This document shows, piece after piece, positions 39,897 to 49,517 of a stretch of 64,000 nt of DNA. Under the pieces are notes generated by a model. The model saw nothing but the letters and a program-made list of their open reading frames with translations, did not search any database and was not told the DNA's origin. Numbering within the stretch: the first letter of the stretch is position 1; each line of letters starts with the position of its first letter. The stretch is from positions 1 through 64,000 of the forward strand of contig SIBJ01000008.1 of assembly GCA_009695195.1 (NCBI GenBank), written 5' to 3'. The position numbers and the translations under genes were made by a program. The stretch comes from Pedosphaera sp. GTDB lineage: Bacteria > Verrucomicrobiota > Verrucomicrobiia > Limisphaerales > JADLHS01.

Positions 39897-40023
39897 GAAA
39901 GCTCCAAGCACCAACATCCAAGCTCCAGAGAAGCTCCAAAACCCAAACCTCAAACCAGCTTGGCCAGTTGGAGCTTGGTGCTTGAAGTTTCTCTGGAGCT
40001 TGGTGCTTGGAATTTGGAGCTTC
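39897..40023. repeat. Palindrome of AGCTCCAAGCACC units
   Basis: AGCTCCAAGCACCAACATCC and following words at 39897-39932 are largely complementary to TTCTCTGGAGCTTGGTGCTT and following at 39989-40023. It is the same family as the 35-bp perfect palindrome at 48113-48255 inside the TolC-like gene. Here it is intergenic, between arsC and the response regulator gene. Confidence 0.85.
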
Positions 40024-43712: not shown

Positions 43713-43801
43713 AGTTGAGTTAGGAGCGTGGCTACTCCTTGAGTTCCAGAATTTAAATTGTTCCCATGCTTGCGCCGAGCCGCTAATTGTTTGTCCAACC
43801 T

Positions 43802-46800
43802 ATGAGCCTTGTTCAACTCGCCCTGCGCCGACCGCTGACCGTCGTTGTGCTCATCATTGGGGTGGTGCTCGGCGCCGGCGTCGCCTTGAAAAAGATGTCG
43901 CGCGACGTTTTTCCGCCGCTCGGCATTCCCACGATCTACGTCGCGCAACCCTTCGGCGGCATGGACCCGGCGCAGATGGAGGGCTACCTCACTTACTATT
44001 ACGAATACCATTTCCTCTACATCACCGGGATCGAACACGTCGAATCCAAGTCCATCCAGGGCGCGAGCTTGATGAAGCTGCAGTTTCATCCGGGCACGGA
44101 CATGTCGGCGGCGATGTCGGAGACAGTCGCCTACGTGAACCGCGCGCGCGCCTTCATGCCGCCGGGCACGCCCGGGCCGTTCATCACCCGCTTCGATGCC
44201 GGCAGCGTGCCGGTCGGCTATCTCGTTTTCTCCACCACCAATGAGAATCGCACCGTCGGCCAGATGCAGGACGCCGCGCTCAACTCGGTGCGCCCGCTGT
44301 TCGCCACGTTGCCCGGCGTGTCCGCGCCGCCACCGTTTGGCGGCAGCGCACGCACCATCGTGATTAACGTCAAACCGGATCGCCTCCGCGCCTACAATCT
44401 TTCGCCCGACGAAATCGTCCAGGCCATGTCGCAGGCCAACACCATCAGTCCGTCGGGCAACATGAATCTCGGCGACAAATATCCCATCGTCCCCGTCAAC
44501 GCCGTCGTGAAGAACATCAAAGACCTGGAAGGCGTGCCGCTTCGCGTGAACACCAGCGGCGCAGTTTTTCTGCGCGACGTCGCCACGGTCGAGGACGCCG
44601 CGGACATCGTCACGAGCTACGCGCTCGTCAACGGGCGGCGCACCGTTTATCTGCCCGTCACGAAACGCTCCGATGCCTCGACGCTCACCGTGGTCGAGTT
44701 GGTGAAGAAAAACATCCCCAAGTTCCAAAGCGTCGTGCCCGATGACATCAAGGTGAGCTACGAATTCGACCAGTCGCCCATCGTGCGCCGTTCCATTCGC
44801 GACCTCGTGAAGGAAGGCGCGATCGGCGCGGTGCTGACTGGCCTGATGGTGCTGTTGTTTCTGCGCGACTGGCGGAGTGCGTTCATCGTCGTGGTCAACA
44901 TCCCGCTCTCGCTCCTCGCCGCGACGTTCGCGCTCTCGCTCACCGGCCAAAGCATCAACCTGATGACGCTCGGCGGCCTCGCGCTAGCCGTCGGCATCCT
45001 CGTGGACGAAGCGACCGTGACGGTGGAGAACATTCACGCACATCTCGCTCGCGGCCGTTCGCTGGCCCGCGCCGCGCTCGACGCCACGCGCGAAACCGCG
45101 CTCCCTCGCTTGCTGGCAATGCTCTGCGTCCTCGCCGTGTTCATTCCCGCGTTCTTCATGACCGGCGCGGCCAAGGCGCTGTTCGTTCCGCTCGCGCTGG
45201 CAGTCGGTTTTTCGATGGTCGCCTCCTTCATCCTGTCGAGCACGCTCGTGCCGGTCTTGAGCATCTGGTTCCTGCGCGGACACGCCAGCGAAGTTCACGA
45301 CGCATCCTTCTTTAGCAAACTTCAGAAAACCTACGCTGACTTGCTTCGCCGCACGGTGGCGATGCGCTGGGCCGTCCTGCCGATTTACCTCATCGCCTCA
45401 GTGTTGGTGATCTGGCTGGTCGGTAGCCGGCTCGGGACGGAAATCTTTCCGACCGTCGAAGCCGGGCAAATGGCGCTGCGTGTCCGCACTCCCACTGGCA
45501 CGAAAGTCGAACTCACCGAGCAGTTCGCGCTGAAGACGCTAGACCTCATCAAGCGCGAAGCCGGCGCGGACAACATCGCGCTGACGATGGGCCTCGTGGG
45601 CGTTCACGCGGCGAACTATCCCGTCAACCTCATCCATCTTTGGAATGGCGGCCCGGAAGAAGCCTGGCTCGCCGTCCAGTTCAAGCCAGACGCTCGCGTG
45701 AAGATTTCCGAACTCAAGGAAAAGCTCCGCGCCGTCCTCGCGAATGAATTGCCAGACGTGCGCGTGTCGTTCGAGCCGAGCGACATCGTGAGCCGCGTCA
45801 TGAGTTTCGGCTCGCCCACGCCCATTGAAGTCGCGGTGCAAGGGCCGAGCCTTACAGTGAACAAGGAGTTCGCCGACAAGATTTACGCCGAGGTGAAAAA
45901 AATTCCCGCGCTGCGTGACGTGCATTTTGCGCAGTCGCTAGACTTCCCGACCGTGGACGTGAACGTGAACCGCGAGCGCGCCGGCTTGCTCGGCGTGAAG
46001 ATGGGCGACGTGACGCGTTCGCTCGTGGCGGCCACCACGTCGAGCCGTTTCACCGTCGCGAATTTTTGGTCCGATCCCAATTCCGGTGTGAGCTACAACC
46101 TGCAAATCCAAATCCCGCAGGCCAAGACCACCTCTCTCGAAGACTTGAGGAACGTCCCGGTTTCCGGGAGCGGCGCGAAATCCGTGCTGCTGCGCAACCT
46201 CGCCAGCGTCGCGCCCGGCACCGCCGTCGGCCAATACGAACGCTACAACATGGCCCGCGTCGTCAGCATCACTGCCAATCTCCAGGGCGCGGATCTCGGC
46301 AGCGTCACGAAGCAAATCACGAAAGCCATCGCCGCCGTGGGCGCGCCGCCGCCGAAGACCAGCGTCGCCGTGCGCGGGCAGATGGTGCCGTTACAGGAAT
46401 TGTTCGGTGGCTTTCAATCCGGCCTCATCATTGCCATCGTCGTCGTGTTCCTGATGCTGGCGGCGAACTTCCAATCACTGCGCCTGTCCCTGGCCGTTGT
46501 CTCGACCGTGCCGGCGGTCATCGCCGGAGTCGTGCTCACGCTTTGGCTCACCGGCACGACGCTGAACGTCCAGTCCGCGATGGGCGCGATTATGGCCGTG
46601 GGCGTGGCCGTGGCGAACGCGATTCTGCTCGTGACGTTTGCCGAGAAAGCCAGGAGCGCGGGCGGCTCGCCCGCCAGTCCCGATGTCTTTGCCGCCGCCG
46701 TCGAAGGCGCCCGCAGCCGGCTGCGCCCGATTTTGATGACCAGCTTCGCGATGATCGCCGGCATGTTGCCGCTCGCGCTCGGTCTCGGCGAAGGCGGCGA

Positions 46801-46981
46801 TCAAACCGCGCCGCTGGGCCGCGCCGTCGTGGGCGGCCTCGCGACGGCGACACTCGCCACGTTGTTCGTGTTGCCGTCTGTGTTCGCAATTCTGGCGGGC
46901 CGCAAAGTTCGCTCGCCCTCGCTCGACCCGGAAGATTCGGCGAGCGGATTTTATGAAGCGCCCGCAAAAATAATTTTATGA
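43802..46981 (+). CDS. RND-family efflux pump
   Basis: The protein has 1059 residues from MSLVQLALRRPLTVVVLIIG. It has the RND layout of two sets of one plus five membrane helices and two large periplasmic loops. Visible motifs include TLGGLALAVGILVDEATVTV in helix 4 and NVQSAMGAIMAVGVAVANAI in helix 10. It is the inner-membrane proton-driven pump of a tripartite complex with the next two genes, which overlap it by four bases. The substrate is not evident; the helix-4 sequence is of the HAE/multidrug rather than the heavy-metal type. Confidence 0.92.
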   Translation: MSLVQLALRRPLTVVVLIIGVVLGAGVALKKMSRDVFPPLGIPTIYVAQPFGGMDPAQMEGYLTYYYEYHFLYITGIEHVESKSIQGASLMKLQFHPGTDMSAAMSETVAYVNRARAFMPPGTPGPFITRFDAGSVPVGYLVFSTTNENRTVGQMQDAALNSVRPLFATLPGVSAPPPFGGSARTIVINVKPDRLRAYNLSPDEIVQAMSQANTISPSGNMNLGDKYPIVPVNAVVKNIKDLEGVPLRVNTSGAVFLRDVATVEDAADIVTSYALVNGRRTVYLPVTKRSDASTLTVVELVKKNIPKFQSVVPDDIKVSYEFDQSPIVRRSIRDLVKEGAIGAVLTGLMVLLFLRDWRSAFIVVVNIPLSLLAATFALSLTGQSINLMTLGGLALAVGILVDEATVTVENIHAHLARGRSLARAALDATRETALPRLLAMLCVLAVFIPAFFMTGAAKALFVPLALAVGFSMVASFILSSTLVPVLSIWFLRGHASEVHDASFFSKLQKTYADLLRRTVAMRWAVLPIYLIASVLVIWLVGSRLGTEIFPTVEAGQMALRVRTPTGTKVELTEQFALKTLDLIKREAGADNIALTMGLVGVHAANYPVNLIHLWNGGPEEAWLAVQFKPDARVKISELKEKLRAVLANELPDVRVSFEPSDIVSRVMSFGSPTPIEVAVQGPSLTVNKEFADKIYAEVKKIPALRDVHFAQSLDFPTVDVNVNRERAGLLGVKMGDVTRSLVAATTSSRFTVANFWSDPNSGVSYNLQIQIPQAKTTSLEDLRNVPVSGSGAKSVLLRNLASVAPGTAVGQYERYNMARVVSITANLQGADLGSVTKQITKAIAAVGAPPPKTSVAVRGQMVPLQELFGGFQSGLIIAIVVVFLMLAANFQSLRLSLAVVSTVPAVIAGVVLTLWLTGTTLNVQSAMGAIMAVGVAVANAILLVTFAEKARSAGGSPASPDVFAAAVEGARSRLRPILMTSFAMIAGMLPLALGLGEGGDQTAPLGRAVVGGLATATLATLFVLPSVFAILAGRKVRSPSLDPEDSASGFYEAPAKIIL

Positions 46982-48114
46982 AGCGACTCTTTCAAAACGG
47001 CGTAGCGGCGTCTCGGCAGAGCGCCGCACTTGTTCACGAACATCGAGATGGCGGCGCTCTGCCGAGACGCCGCTACACCGACTGGGTGGCCATAACGATT
47101 CTCGCGTTCGCGCAACTCACGTTCGCCGCCGAGGCGCCGAAGCCGGCCGAGGTGAAGGTCGCGCGCCCGACGCGCGGCGAGATCATCCGTTATGTCACCG
47201 TTCCCGGCGGCATCCGAGCCAATCAACAGGCCACGCTTTATGCGAAGGTCGCCGGTTACTTGAAATCTTTGGCCGTGGACAAAGGCGATCGCGTGCAAGC
47301 CGGCCAGTCGCTCGGCGAAATCGAAGTGCCGGAACTGCTGGCCGACTCTTCAAAATACAAAGCCGAAGTGAAGGTGGCCGAAACAGACTTCCAGCGCGTG
47401 AGCGCGGCGCAGAAAAAATCTCCCGACCTCGTTACGCCGCAAGCCGTGGACGAAGCCAAAGGTCGGTTTGAAATCGCGAGCGCGAACCTCGAGCGCACGC
47501 AGACTTTGTTGAGTTACGCCAAGATCACCGCGCCCTTTTCCGGCATCGTGACGGCGCGCTTTGTTGATCCCGGCGCGTTCATTCCGTCGGCGACGTCTGG
47601 GAGCGCGGCGCAGAATGCCGCCATCGTCACGCTCGCGGATTTCAACACCGTGCGGGCGCAGGTGGCGCTGCCGGAAGTCGAAGCGTCGCTCGCGCAGGTC
47701 GGCCAGCCGGTCAAGCTCACTGTCGAAGGTCTCGCCGGAAAAACGTTTGAAGCGAAAGTCAGCCGTCTGAGCTACGCGCTCGACGACGCCACCAAAACGA
47801 TGTTGATCGAAGCCGATCTGCCCAATCCCGATCTCGCCCTCCGCCCCGGCATGTATGCCACCGTGAAAGTCGGCGTGGAGAAACACGTTGACGCACTGCT
47901 TCTTCCCGTCGAAGCACTGGTGATGGAAAAAGCCAACGCCTTCACGTTCGTCGCCGAGAGCGGCAAGGCGAAGAAGACGGCGATCAAAATCGGTTTCAAC
48001 GACGGCGCGAAGGTTGAAGTGCTCACCGGCTTGAAGGGAAACGAGGCGGTGATTCTCGTGGGCAAGATGACTTTGGCGGATGGAGCGGCGGTCAATGTGA
48101 CGGAGGCGAAATGA
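46978..48114 (+). CDS. RND periplasmic adaptor (membrane fusion protein)
   Basis: The 378-residue protein overlaps the pump stop (ATGA). The barrel-sandwich, hairpin and beta-barrel parts of an MFP are clear: GGIRANQQATLYAKVAGYLK, VDKGDRVQAGQSLGEIEVPE, SYAKITAPFSGIVTARFVDP and LRPGMYATVKVGV. It bridges pump and channel. A perfect 26-bp inverted repeat is embedded in frame after six residues (MKRLFQ), adding about 27 Arg/Ala-rich residues before the hydrophobic export segment WVAITILAFAQLTFAAEAPK. Export may be affected. Confidence 0.9.
   Translation: MKRLFQNGVAASRQSAALVHEHRDGGALPRRRYTDWVAITILAFAQLTFAAEAPKPAEVKVARPTRGEIIRYVTVPGGIRANQQATLYAKVAGYLKSLAVDKGDRVQAGQSLGEIEVPELLADSSKYKAEVKVAETDFQRVSAAQKKSPDLVTPQAVDEAKGRFEIASANLERTQTLLSYAKITAPFSGIVTARFVDPGAFIPSATSGSAAQNAAIVTLADFNTVRAQVALPEVEASLAQVGQPVKLTVEGLAGKTFEAKVSRLSYALDDATKTMLIEADLPNPDLALRPGMYATVKVGVEKHVDALLLPVEALVMEKANAFTFVAESGKAKKTAIKIGFNDGAKVEVLTGLKGNEAVILVGKMTLADGAAVNVTEAK
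47002..47076. repeat. Palindromic element within the adaptor gene
   Basis: Perfect 26-bp arms, GTAGCGGCGTCTCGGCAGAG... at 47002-47027 and its complement at 47051-47076, with a 23-base centre. The 75 bp are a multiple of three and keep the frame open, encoding VAASRQSAALVHEHRDGGAL and a few more residues. Confidence 0.93.
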
Positions 48115-49517
48115 AGCACCAAGCACCAAGCTCCAAGCACCAGAGAAGCTCCAAGCTCCAAGCTCCAAAGACCACTTGCGCGCGCCGGGGACTTGGTGCT
48201 TGGTGTTTGGTGTTTGGATGTTCTCTGGTGCTTGGAGCTTGGTGCTTGGTGCTTCGCGGCCGCGCGCAACCGACAAACGAAGTTTCCCCAATTGACCTTC
48301 CCACCGCGCTCCGTCTCGCCGGCGCGCAGAATCTCGACGTGCAGATCGCGCGCGAACGGTTGGTCGAGGCGAAGGCCAATCATCGGAGCGCCGTCGCGCA
48401 ATTTTTCCCGTGGGTCGCCCCGGGCATCACGTATCGCCAGCACGACGACAAGCTCCAGGATGTCGCCGGCAACCTCATTGACGTTCACAAATATTCCTAC
48501 GCGCCCGGCGCCACGGTCGGCGTGCAACTCGATCTGGGCGACGCGATCTACAAATCGCTCGCGGCGAAACAAATCGCCCACGCCGCCGGGCACGCACTGG
48601 AAGCGCAACGGCGGGAGAGCGTGTTGGCGGCGGCGCAGGGTTATTTTGAGCTGGCGCTGGCGCAGGGCGCGGTCGGCGTGGCCAGGGAGGCCGTGCGGAT
48701 TGCCGGCGATTACGAATCGCAACTCGGCAGCGCGGTCGAAACCGGCATCGCGTTCAAGGGCGATCTGCTCCGCGCGCGCGTGCAAATGGAGCGCAACCGG
48801 CTGACGTTGCGGCGGGCGCAGGAACAACAGCGCGTCGGCGCCGCGCGGCTGGCGCAGGTGCTCCACCTCGATCCCACGGTGGAGTTGGTCGCGTCGGATT
48901 CCGAACTCGCGCCACTCTCGCTCATCGAAACGAACGCGGCGCTCGACCCGTTCGTGCAGCAAGCCATCGCTTCCCGGCCGGAACTCAAGCAGGGCCGGGC
49001 GTTGACCCTGGCCGCGCGCGACGCGAAGAACGGCGCGGCATTCGGCCCGTTGATTCCCTCGCTCGGCGCGCAAGGATTCTGGGGCGGGCTGGGCGGTGGA
49101 CGACAGGGGATTTCCGACACGTTTGGCGGACAACAGGATTTCGTGTTGGGCGCAAGCTGGCGCATTGGCCCGGGCGGATTGTTTGACTTTGGCCGCGTGC
49201 GCGCGGCGGAGTCGCGCTGGAAAATGGCGGAGCTGGGTTTCGACAAATTGCGCGACGAGGTGACGCGACAGGTGATCGAGGCGTTCACGCGCTGGCAATC
49301 GCTGGGCGACCAGCTCGTCATGGCCAGACGCGCGCTCGCCGCCGCCGAAGAAGGTTTGCAACTGGCGCAGCAGCGGAAGGAATACGCGGTGGGCGTCGTG
49401 TTGGAAACGATCCAGGCTGAGCAGGACCTGACCCGGGCGCGGCTGGAGTATTTGAAGGCGGTGGCGGAGTTCAACTCGGCGCAATACCTCTTGTCCAAGG
49501 CGGCCGGCCGGCTCTGA
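48111..49517 (+). CDS. TolC-like outer-membrane efflux channel with repeat-derived signal peptide
   Basis: The 468-residue protein overlaps the adaptor stop (ATGA). The OEP fold starts at about residue 62 (DLPTALRLAGAQNLDVQIAR) with the two long coiled-coil repeats, for example FELALAQGAVGVAREAVRIA and VGVVLETIQAEQDLTRARLE. The first 48 residues after Met are encoded by a 143-bp palindrome and read KHQAPSSKHQ..., then GLGAWCLVFGCSLVLGAWCL. This hydrophobic run with a basic head is the only possible signal peptide, cleaved perhaps after RGRA. It completes the tripartite pump. Confidence 0.9.
   Translation: MKHQAPSSKHQRSSKLQAPKTTCARRGLGAWCLVFGCSLVLGAWCLVLRGRAQPTNEVSPIDLPTALRLAGAQNLDVQIARERLVEAKANHRSAVAQFFPWVAPGITYRQHDDKLQDVAGNLIDVHKYSYAPGATVGVQLDLGDAIYKSLAAKQIAHAAGHALEAQRRESVLAAAQGYFELALAQGAVGVAREAVRIAGDYESQLGSAVETGIAFKGDLLRARVQMERNRLTLRRAQEQQRVGAARLAQVLHLDPTVELVASDSELAPLSLIETNAALDPFVQQAIASRPELKQGRALTLAARDAKNGAAFGPLIPSLGAQGFWGGLGGGRQGISDTFGGQQDFVLGASWRIGPGGLFDFGRVRAAESRWKMAELGFDKLRDEVTRQVIEAFTRWQSLGDQLVMARRALAAAEEGLQLAQQRKEYAVGVVLETIQAEQDLTRARLEYLKAVAEFNSAQYLLSKAAGRL
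48113..48255. repeat. Perfect 35-bp palindrome encoding the signal region of the TolC-like protein
   Basis: The arms at 48113-48147 (GAAGCACCAAGCACCAAGCT and on) and 48221-48255 are exact complements over 35 bp. The centre is 73 bases with more of the same words. It begins two bases after the start of the ATG, and the frame stays open throughout. Relative at 39897-40023. Confidence 0.95.

Follow-up and report, generated by a model that had tools for sequence, protein, structure and literature searches.

A dispersed heptad palindrome as the probable signal peptide of a TolC-type channel in Pedosphaera sp.

The outer-membrane channel gene of an RND pump operon in Pedosphaera sp. opens with a copy of a dispersed palindromic repeat. 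We propose that this copy replaced the native Sec signal peptide of the channel, that its reading frame is translated throughout, and that the product is cleaved at the native site. We assign this reading a probability of about 0.77; translation from position 48111, export, cleavage and the origin by insertion are inferences. A presumed export signal coded by a palindrome is not an isolated case, as it recurs in other genes and in other species. Our only source was MAG sequence (draft assembly, 162 contigs), and the window referred to below is the whole analysed stretch of 64,000 nucleotides.

The palindrome inside the channel gene

The operon has the order RND pump, adaptor, TolC-type channel. 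Its relevant features, all on the plus strand, are:

43787-46981, plus: RND (AcrB-type) pump gene, in the same operon as the adaptor and channel genes (domain search)
46978-48114, plus: periplasmic adaptor gene, HlyD/CusB type (domain search)
46997-47081, plus: second, different palindrome, within the n-region of the adaptor signal peptide
48102-48106, plus: GGAGG, Shine-Dalgarno-like, 4 nt upstream of the channel ATG (from the sequence; predicted to be mostly paired)
48111-48114, plus: ATGA overlap of the channel start codon (48111-48113) and the adaptor TGA stop codon (48112-48114)
48111-49517, plus: TolC/OEP outer-membrane channel gene, 468 aa (Pfam OEP, 2.4e-37; AlphaFold model with PDB matches)
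48111-48266, plus: proposed signal peptide, cleavage after Ala52 (GRA/QPTN), inferred from hydropathy, charge and alignment
48113-48255, plus: palindromic element of the heptad family CCAANNN, 143 bp, in frame, channel codons 1-49
48113-48174, plus: left arm, 62 nt, coding for a basic hydrophilic n-region (KHQAPSSKHQRSSKLQAPK...)
48175-48193, plus: loop, 19 nt, separating the arms
48194-48255, plus: right arm, 62 nt, coding for the hydrophobic core (GAWCLVFGCSLVLGAWCLVL)

A sequence-only reading of the window had described a 143-bp palindromic element starting in the first channel codons. The inverted repeat is real and has this length, and the ATG at 48111-48113 opens a 468-aa frame that runs through it. 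The arms are 87% complementary over 62 nt and consist of 7-nt units, in most of which three variable bases come after CCAA (CCAAGCA and CCAAGCT being frequent); the termini are GAAGC...GCTTC. The predicted RNA fold (-123.5 kcal/mol, z = -11.3) has no break in its outer ~36 pairs, and the hairpin starts at the channel start codon. This codon is native, being part of the overlapping ATGA, and does not derive from the element. A search of Rfam returned only animal microRNA models, far under their thresholds. The 62-nt right arm matches two Neisseria gonorrhoeae records of a plasmid collection (NZ_CP119140.1 and NZ_CP119142.1, ~2.17 Mb) with 84% identity, at several places in each.

By simple measures, the segment encoded by the element resembles a signal peptide; that it directs export is inferred. 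It has a positive n-region, a hydrophobic core and a GRA/Q site with small residues at -3 and -1, as expected of the Sec type. Likeness was judged by hydropathy, charge and the A-X-A pattern alone, without SignalP or another signal-peptide program. The head carries a charge of +7 over 26 residues; the ordinary signal peptides measured in orthologues all have a lower charge, and their heads have only 2-9 residues. The core comprises 22 uncharged residues and its best 12-residue Kyte-Doolittle mean is 2.36, compared with 1.98-2.74 in ordinary orthologues. The hydrophobic run after a basic head, predicted for the right half of the repeat, was thus borne out, except that the uncharged core (GLGAWCLVFGCSLVLGAWCLVL) is two residues longer than the string first given. 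The stretch from the element to the OEP domain contains no hydrophobic segment, in agreement with the earlier claim that no other signal peptide precedes that domain.

The remainder of the protein is an unremarkable TolC/OEP outer-membrane factor, as judged from the Pfam OEP match (2.4e-37) and the TolC fold. The fold occupies residues 58-468 of the AlphaFold model, outside the element, and from about residue 58 the model matches CusC, TolC and OprM in the PDB (E ~1e-17 to 1e-15). Residues 1-55 almost all have pLDDT values below 50.

We envisage the following course of events. A copy of the high-copy palindrome would have come to sit at the adaptor stop codon. With the channel ATG overlapping this stop, the copy would lie between the start codon and the cleavage-site codons, in place of the native Sec signal peptide. 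Ribosomes would initiate at ATG 48111, or restart there after the adaptor stop, and read through the palindrome, the left arm yielding the Lys/Arg-rich head and the complementary right arm the 22-residue hydrophobic core. Signal peptidase would then cut at the retained native Ala-Gln site and release an ordinary TolC protomer. According to the predicted fold, the hairpin at the ATG and the mostly paired Shine-Dalgarno-like site should hinder initiation, so that expression may depend on coupling to adaptor translation.

The hairpin's overlap with the channel ATG also leaves room for translation to begin inside the element, where in-frame TTG/GTG codons are indeed present (codons 33, 34, 40, 47 and 48); the signal peptide would then be shorter and still coded by the element. 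Another gene with the palindrome, encoding an MbnP-MauG fusion (L139), seemingly has only a GTG start, inside its element. An internal start in the channel gene would, however, drop the basic head, and the stop-overlapping ATG is kept in position among the orthologues and has GGAGG 4 nt upstream. We therefore consider an internal start unlikely.

Two further observations concern the surroundings of the element. The palindrome at 46997-47081 has many dispersed copies in the genome, and the adaptor and channel, adjoining genes of one operon, have different palindromes in their two export signals. About a dozen more strong inverted repeats, of several kinds and with units such as CTTAATC, CAGAGTC and AATGAAG, occur in the window, apparently at or near gene junctions (15816, 17363, 25535, 27762, 34284, 34960, 35513, 39034, 40530, 41470 and 54382).

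The same site in channel orthologues

In most orthologues the channel gene likewise begins at an ATGA or GTGA overlap, and the signal peptide encoded there is usually of normal length. Orthologues with a normal signal peptide at a start further downstream would have refuted the sequence-only reading. Among the orthologues read, none starts downstream of the element position; most share the ATGA/GTGA overlap. The common start and the ordinary signal peptides support the view that the element replaced one of the latter; insertion as the origin is inferred. All eight N-termini compared align at the Ala-Gln of the cleavage region, which in the window channel comes just after the element. We infer that the element stands in for the native head and core, and that the end of the native signal peptide was retained.

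Repeats are frequent at this site. Strong repeats, either inverted or of ~7 nt (score of at least 13), were found in the signal-coding DNA of 20 of 79 TolC orthologues, compared with 0 of 79 downstream controls and 2 of 79 upstream; in three of the twenty (L086, L089 and L096) the repeat may precede the start codon. Several of the twenty carry other palindrome families, the types seen being TTTCGGA, TTAATC and GAATGAACAC palindromes and one-armed GATTTGC and TTCAGTG repeats. When orthologues are labelled as repeat-bearing or ordinary on their tree, the label requires 13 changes, and at least eight of these are forced by strongly supported branches. In L071, for example, the signal peptide consists of a TTTCGGA palindrome, and the L071 genome contains dozens of related copies; the near sisters L065 and L079 are without this signal-coding palindrome. 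In L016 (G036), a GATTTAC heptad repeat relic lies upstream of the channel gene, ahead of a TTAATC palindrome, and the start codon now used seems to be inside the latter.

Two orthologues, L061 and L102, carry an element of the same family as that of the window, at the same site and with the same length and orientation, and their signal segments are exactly as long as the window's. Among the copies in genome G000, the best match of the L061 element is the channel copy (86 vs 72). The G000 and L061/L102 elements are nevertheless dissimilar in their inner arms, and their genes do not cluster on the tree; from the sequences we cannot decide between shared ancestry and parallel insertion. The age of the insertion is similarly ambiguous. 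The arm symmetry of the channel copy, 0.89, is the maximum of 62 copies and might indicate a young insertion; the same-family element at the same site of L061 and L102, with its identical signal length, might indicate an old one. Substitutions between the L061 and L102 elements (five nonsynonymous, four synonymous; P = 0.31) do not demonstrate purifying selection, but this is one close pair only.

The palindrome family and other exported-type proteins

A genome search with the window element gave at least 80 strand-wise matches, corresponding to about 40 places (the best 40 of 127 candidates scored), and the motif AAGCNCCAAGCNCCAA has 323 genome matches, compared with 2 for a reversed control. 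We estimate that the heptad family has at least 75 copies; 76 were retrieved, and this set is partial. The recurrence of the family within the window, previously put at 39897-40023 in intergenic DNA, holds with corrected limits and context:

39899-40023, plus: second heptad-palindrome copy in the window, touching the stop codon of the minus-strand gene 40022-40471

Copies differ from each other by ~17-30%. This divergence bears on whether repeat copies were misjoined in the assembly, a concern with any repeat-rich short-read MAG in as many as 162 contigs. Misjoining is hard to reconcile with copies that are so distinct, with flanks of the element that keep the adaptor-channel order of the orthologues, and with comparable insertions at the same place in independent MAGs; we regard an artefact as very improbable. 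Likeness of the arms is 0.67 within one copy and 0.705 between different copies. Pairing is thus not kept by compensation, since the arms of one copy are no more alike than those of others, and covariation between arms was rejected on the same ground. In the copies at L138-L199, the heptads vary in the three-base slot (CCAANNN), and the palindrome is kept as a unit type, not as exact pairing.

What we observe is dispersal of the family; mobility can be inferred at most. Of the features of MITEs, inverted arms are present; the flanks, inspected by eye, are without an obvious target-site duplication, and no transposase was identified. Y1_Tnp has six matches in the genome, and one copy (C12) lies ~0.6 kb from one of them, about what the density of copies would give. 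A link of the palindrome to RAYT is accordingly weak.

Placement of the copies is far from random. Of 73 copies having two flanking genes, 58 sit between tandem genes, with a median gap of 3 nt to the upstream stop codon and ~23 nt to the downstream gene. Forty-two of these 58 lie within 7 nt of the upstream stop; random placement of each copy in its own gap gave a mean of 22.4 and a maximum of 33 in 20,000 trials. Gene ends were called by a codon-usage script, and downstream starts are approximate. We infer from these counts that, where two genes overlap, a copy at the stop codon of the first lies at codon 1-2 of the second.

Most copies thus occupy gene junctions behind a stop codon and are capable of strong hairpins, and REPs are known near 3' ends, apparent N-terminal REPs often having been judged extragenic (PMC3733652). 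The channel element could be just such an intercistronic RNA hairpin (a terminator, processing site or attenuator, in the manner of REPs behind stop codons), its open frame being incidental and the channel poorly made, unexported or dying. This seems improbable to us. We found no start codon between the element and the OEP domain, unlike in cytosolic neighbours, which have an ATG after the element; the channel frame is intact and 71% identical to the nearest relative found; and the same arrangement is seen in six exported-type genes. A hairpin role and a coding role of the element may coexist.

These six genes emerged from a scripted search of 66 genes beside a copy, nine of which have a frame open through the hydrophobic arm and nothing hydrophobic after it. 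In three of the nine, the element is soon followed by the gene's own ATG. The remaining six encode proteins of exported kinds: the channel, PSCyt1/PSD1, LolA, GDPD, a PQQ propeller and the MbnP-MauG fusion. In the five besides the channel, the family arm is the only N-terminal hydrophobic stretch. A sulfatase (L198) was rejected as a seventh case, as the frames of its two arms disagree. The GDPD orthologues have ordinary signal peptides. Another 7-nt repeat makes up the signal segments of the LolA orthologues of G001, G004 and G020, and a repeat of ~8 nt those of two PSCyt1 orthologues. LolA, GDPD and PSCyt1 were picked because G000 carries the element there, and G000 therefore has to be excluded from any rates.

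The structure of the repeat suggests why palindromes would suit this role. Because 7 is not divisible by three, a run of 7-nt units yields one and the same heptapeptide in every frame; CCAAGCA reads KHQAPST one way and CLVLGAW the other. When every 7-mer that is open on both strands is translated both ways, the two hydropathies are anticorrelated (r = -0.71); a palindrome of heptads therefore tends to combine a hydrophobic half with one that is hydrophilic and often basic. A basic first half followed by a hydrophobic second half occurs in 27% of element frames (62 full-length copies, six frames) and in 2.1% of background windows. Right arms are more hydrophobic in signal-coding copies than in other copies (4 vs 49, p = 0.0024), a small sample in which case selection may play a part. 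The preference for stop codons, the frame-neutral heptads and the opposite hydropathy of the arms are likely reasons for the recurrence, as inferred from these counts. More broadly, dispersed heptad palindromes might constitute a permanent reservoir of ready-made Sec signal peptides in one order of Verrucomicrobiota, by which, through stop-codon placement, near-irrelevance of frame and basic/hydrophobic arms, the signals of exported proteins were repeatedly replaced; on this wider proposal we find the odds evenly balanced.

Significance and comparison with known systems

To our knowledge, the origin of new signal peptides has largely gone unobserved. New export signals, it seems, can readily be drawn from repetitive 'junk' DNA. 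The donor DNA is recognisable here because it is repetitive and occurs in several genes and many species, and through it one could follow, and test directly, how signal peptides arise and are replaced. Antisense hydropathy and frame-neutral 7-nt units provide a simple reason for the suitability of palindromes. For gene callers and REP surveys, N-termini at such junctions may be misassigned. In the open-access literature we came across no description of a palindrome used as a signal peptide; already known are in-frame protein palindromes, REPs beside stop codons and heptanucleotide repeats (PMC10969869, PMC3733652, PMC4679880).

REPs with GTAG or CGTC tags and RAYT transposases lie near the 3' ends of upstream genes, mostly between tandem or convergent genes, and Opitutus terrae, another member of the Verrucomicrobia, is rich in within-gene REPs (PMC3733652). 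The heptad palindromes share the proximity to upstream 3' ends. They differ from REPs (20-40 bp, terminal GTAG/CGTC tag) in their size of ~130 bp (143 bp for the channel element, which thus does not qualify), their GAAGC...GCTTC ends and the lack of a clear Y1 transposase link.

Intergenic repeats of 7-nt units close to the ends and starts of genes are also familiar. The STRR of cyanobacteria are heptanucleotide repeats in direct tandem arrays. The TAACTGA repeats of Beggiatoaceae likewise form direct tandem arrays and put stop codons into all frames one way (PMC4679880). Unlike both, the heptad family has two facing arms of variable heptads, and many of its frames are open.

Compared with the ordinary Sec signal peptides of TolC/OEP channels, the proposed one has the same basic head, hydrophobic core and small-X-Ala cleavage site; it is set apart by an unusually long head and by head and core being coded by a dispersed repeat.

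The closest precedent is provided by the Rickettsia palindromic elements (RPE) of Ogata, Claverie and colleagues, together with the protein-coding palindromes of Wolbachia (accounts in PMC10969869 and PMC2996958); proteins with an N-terminal RPE-1 are expressed in vivo (PMC3733652). The RPE accounts consulted make no mention of signal peptides. The channel element satisfies the description of an RPE-like coding palindrome, since it belongs to a dispersed family and is read in frame inside a protein that is otherwise conserved, and the two groups agree in their dispersal, their length of ~100-150 bp and their in-frame insertion in coding genes. The heptad palindromes differ from RPE in occurring in unrelated bacteria, in their 7-nt units, in their placement at gene junctions and in replacing a functional targeting segment.
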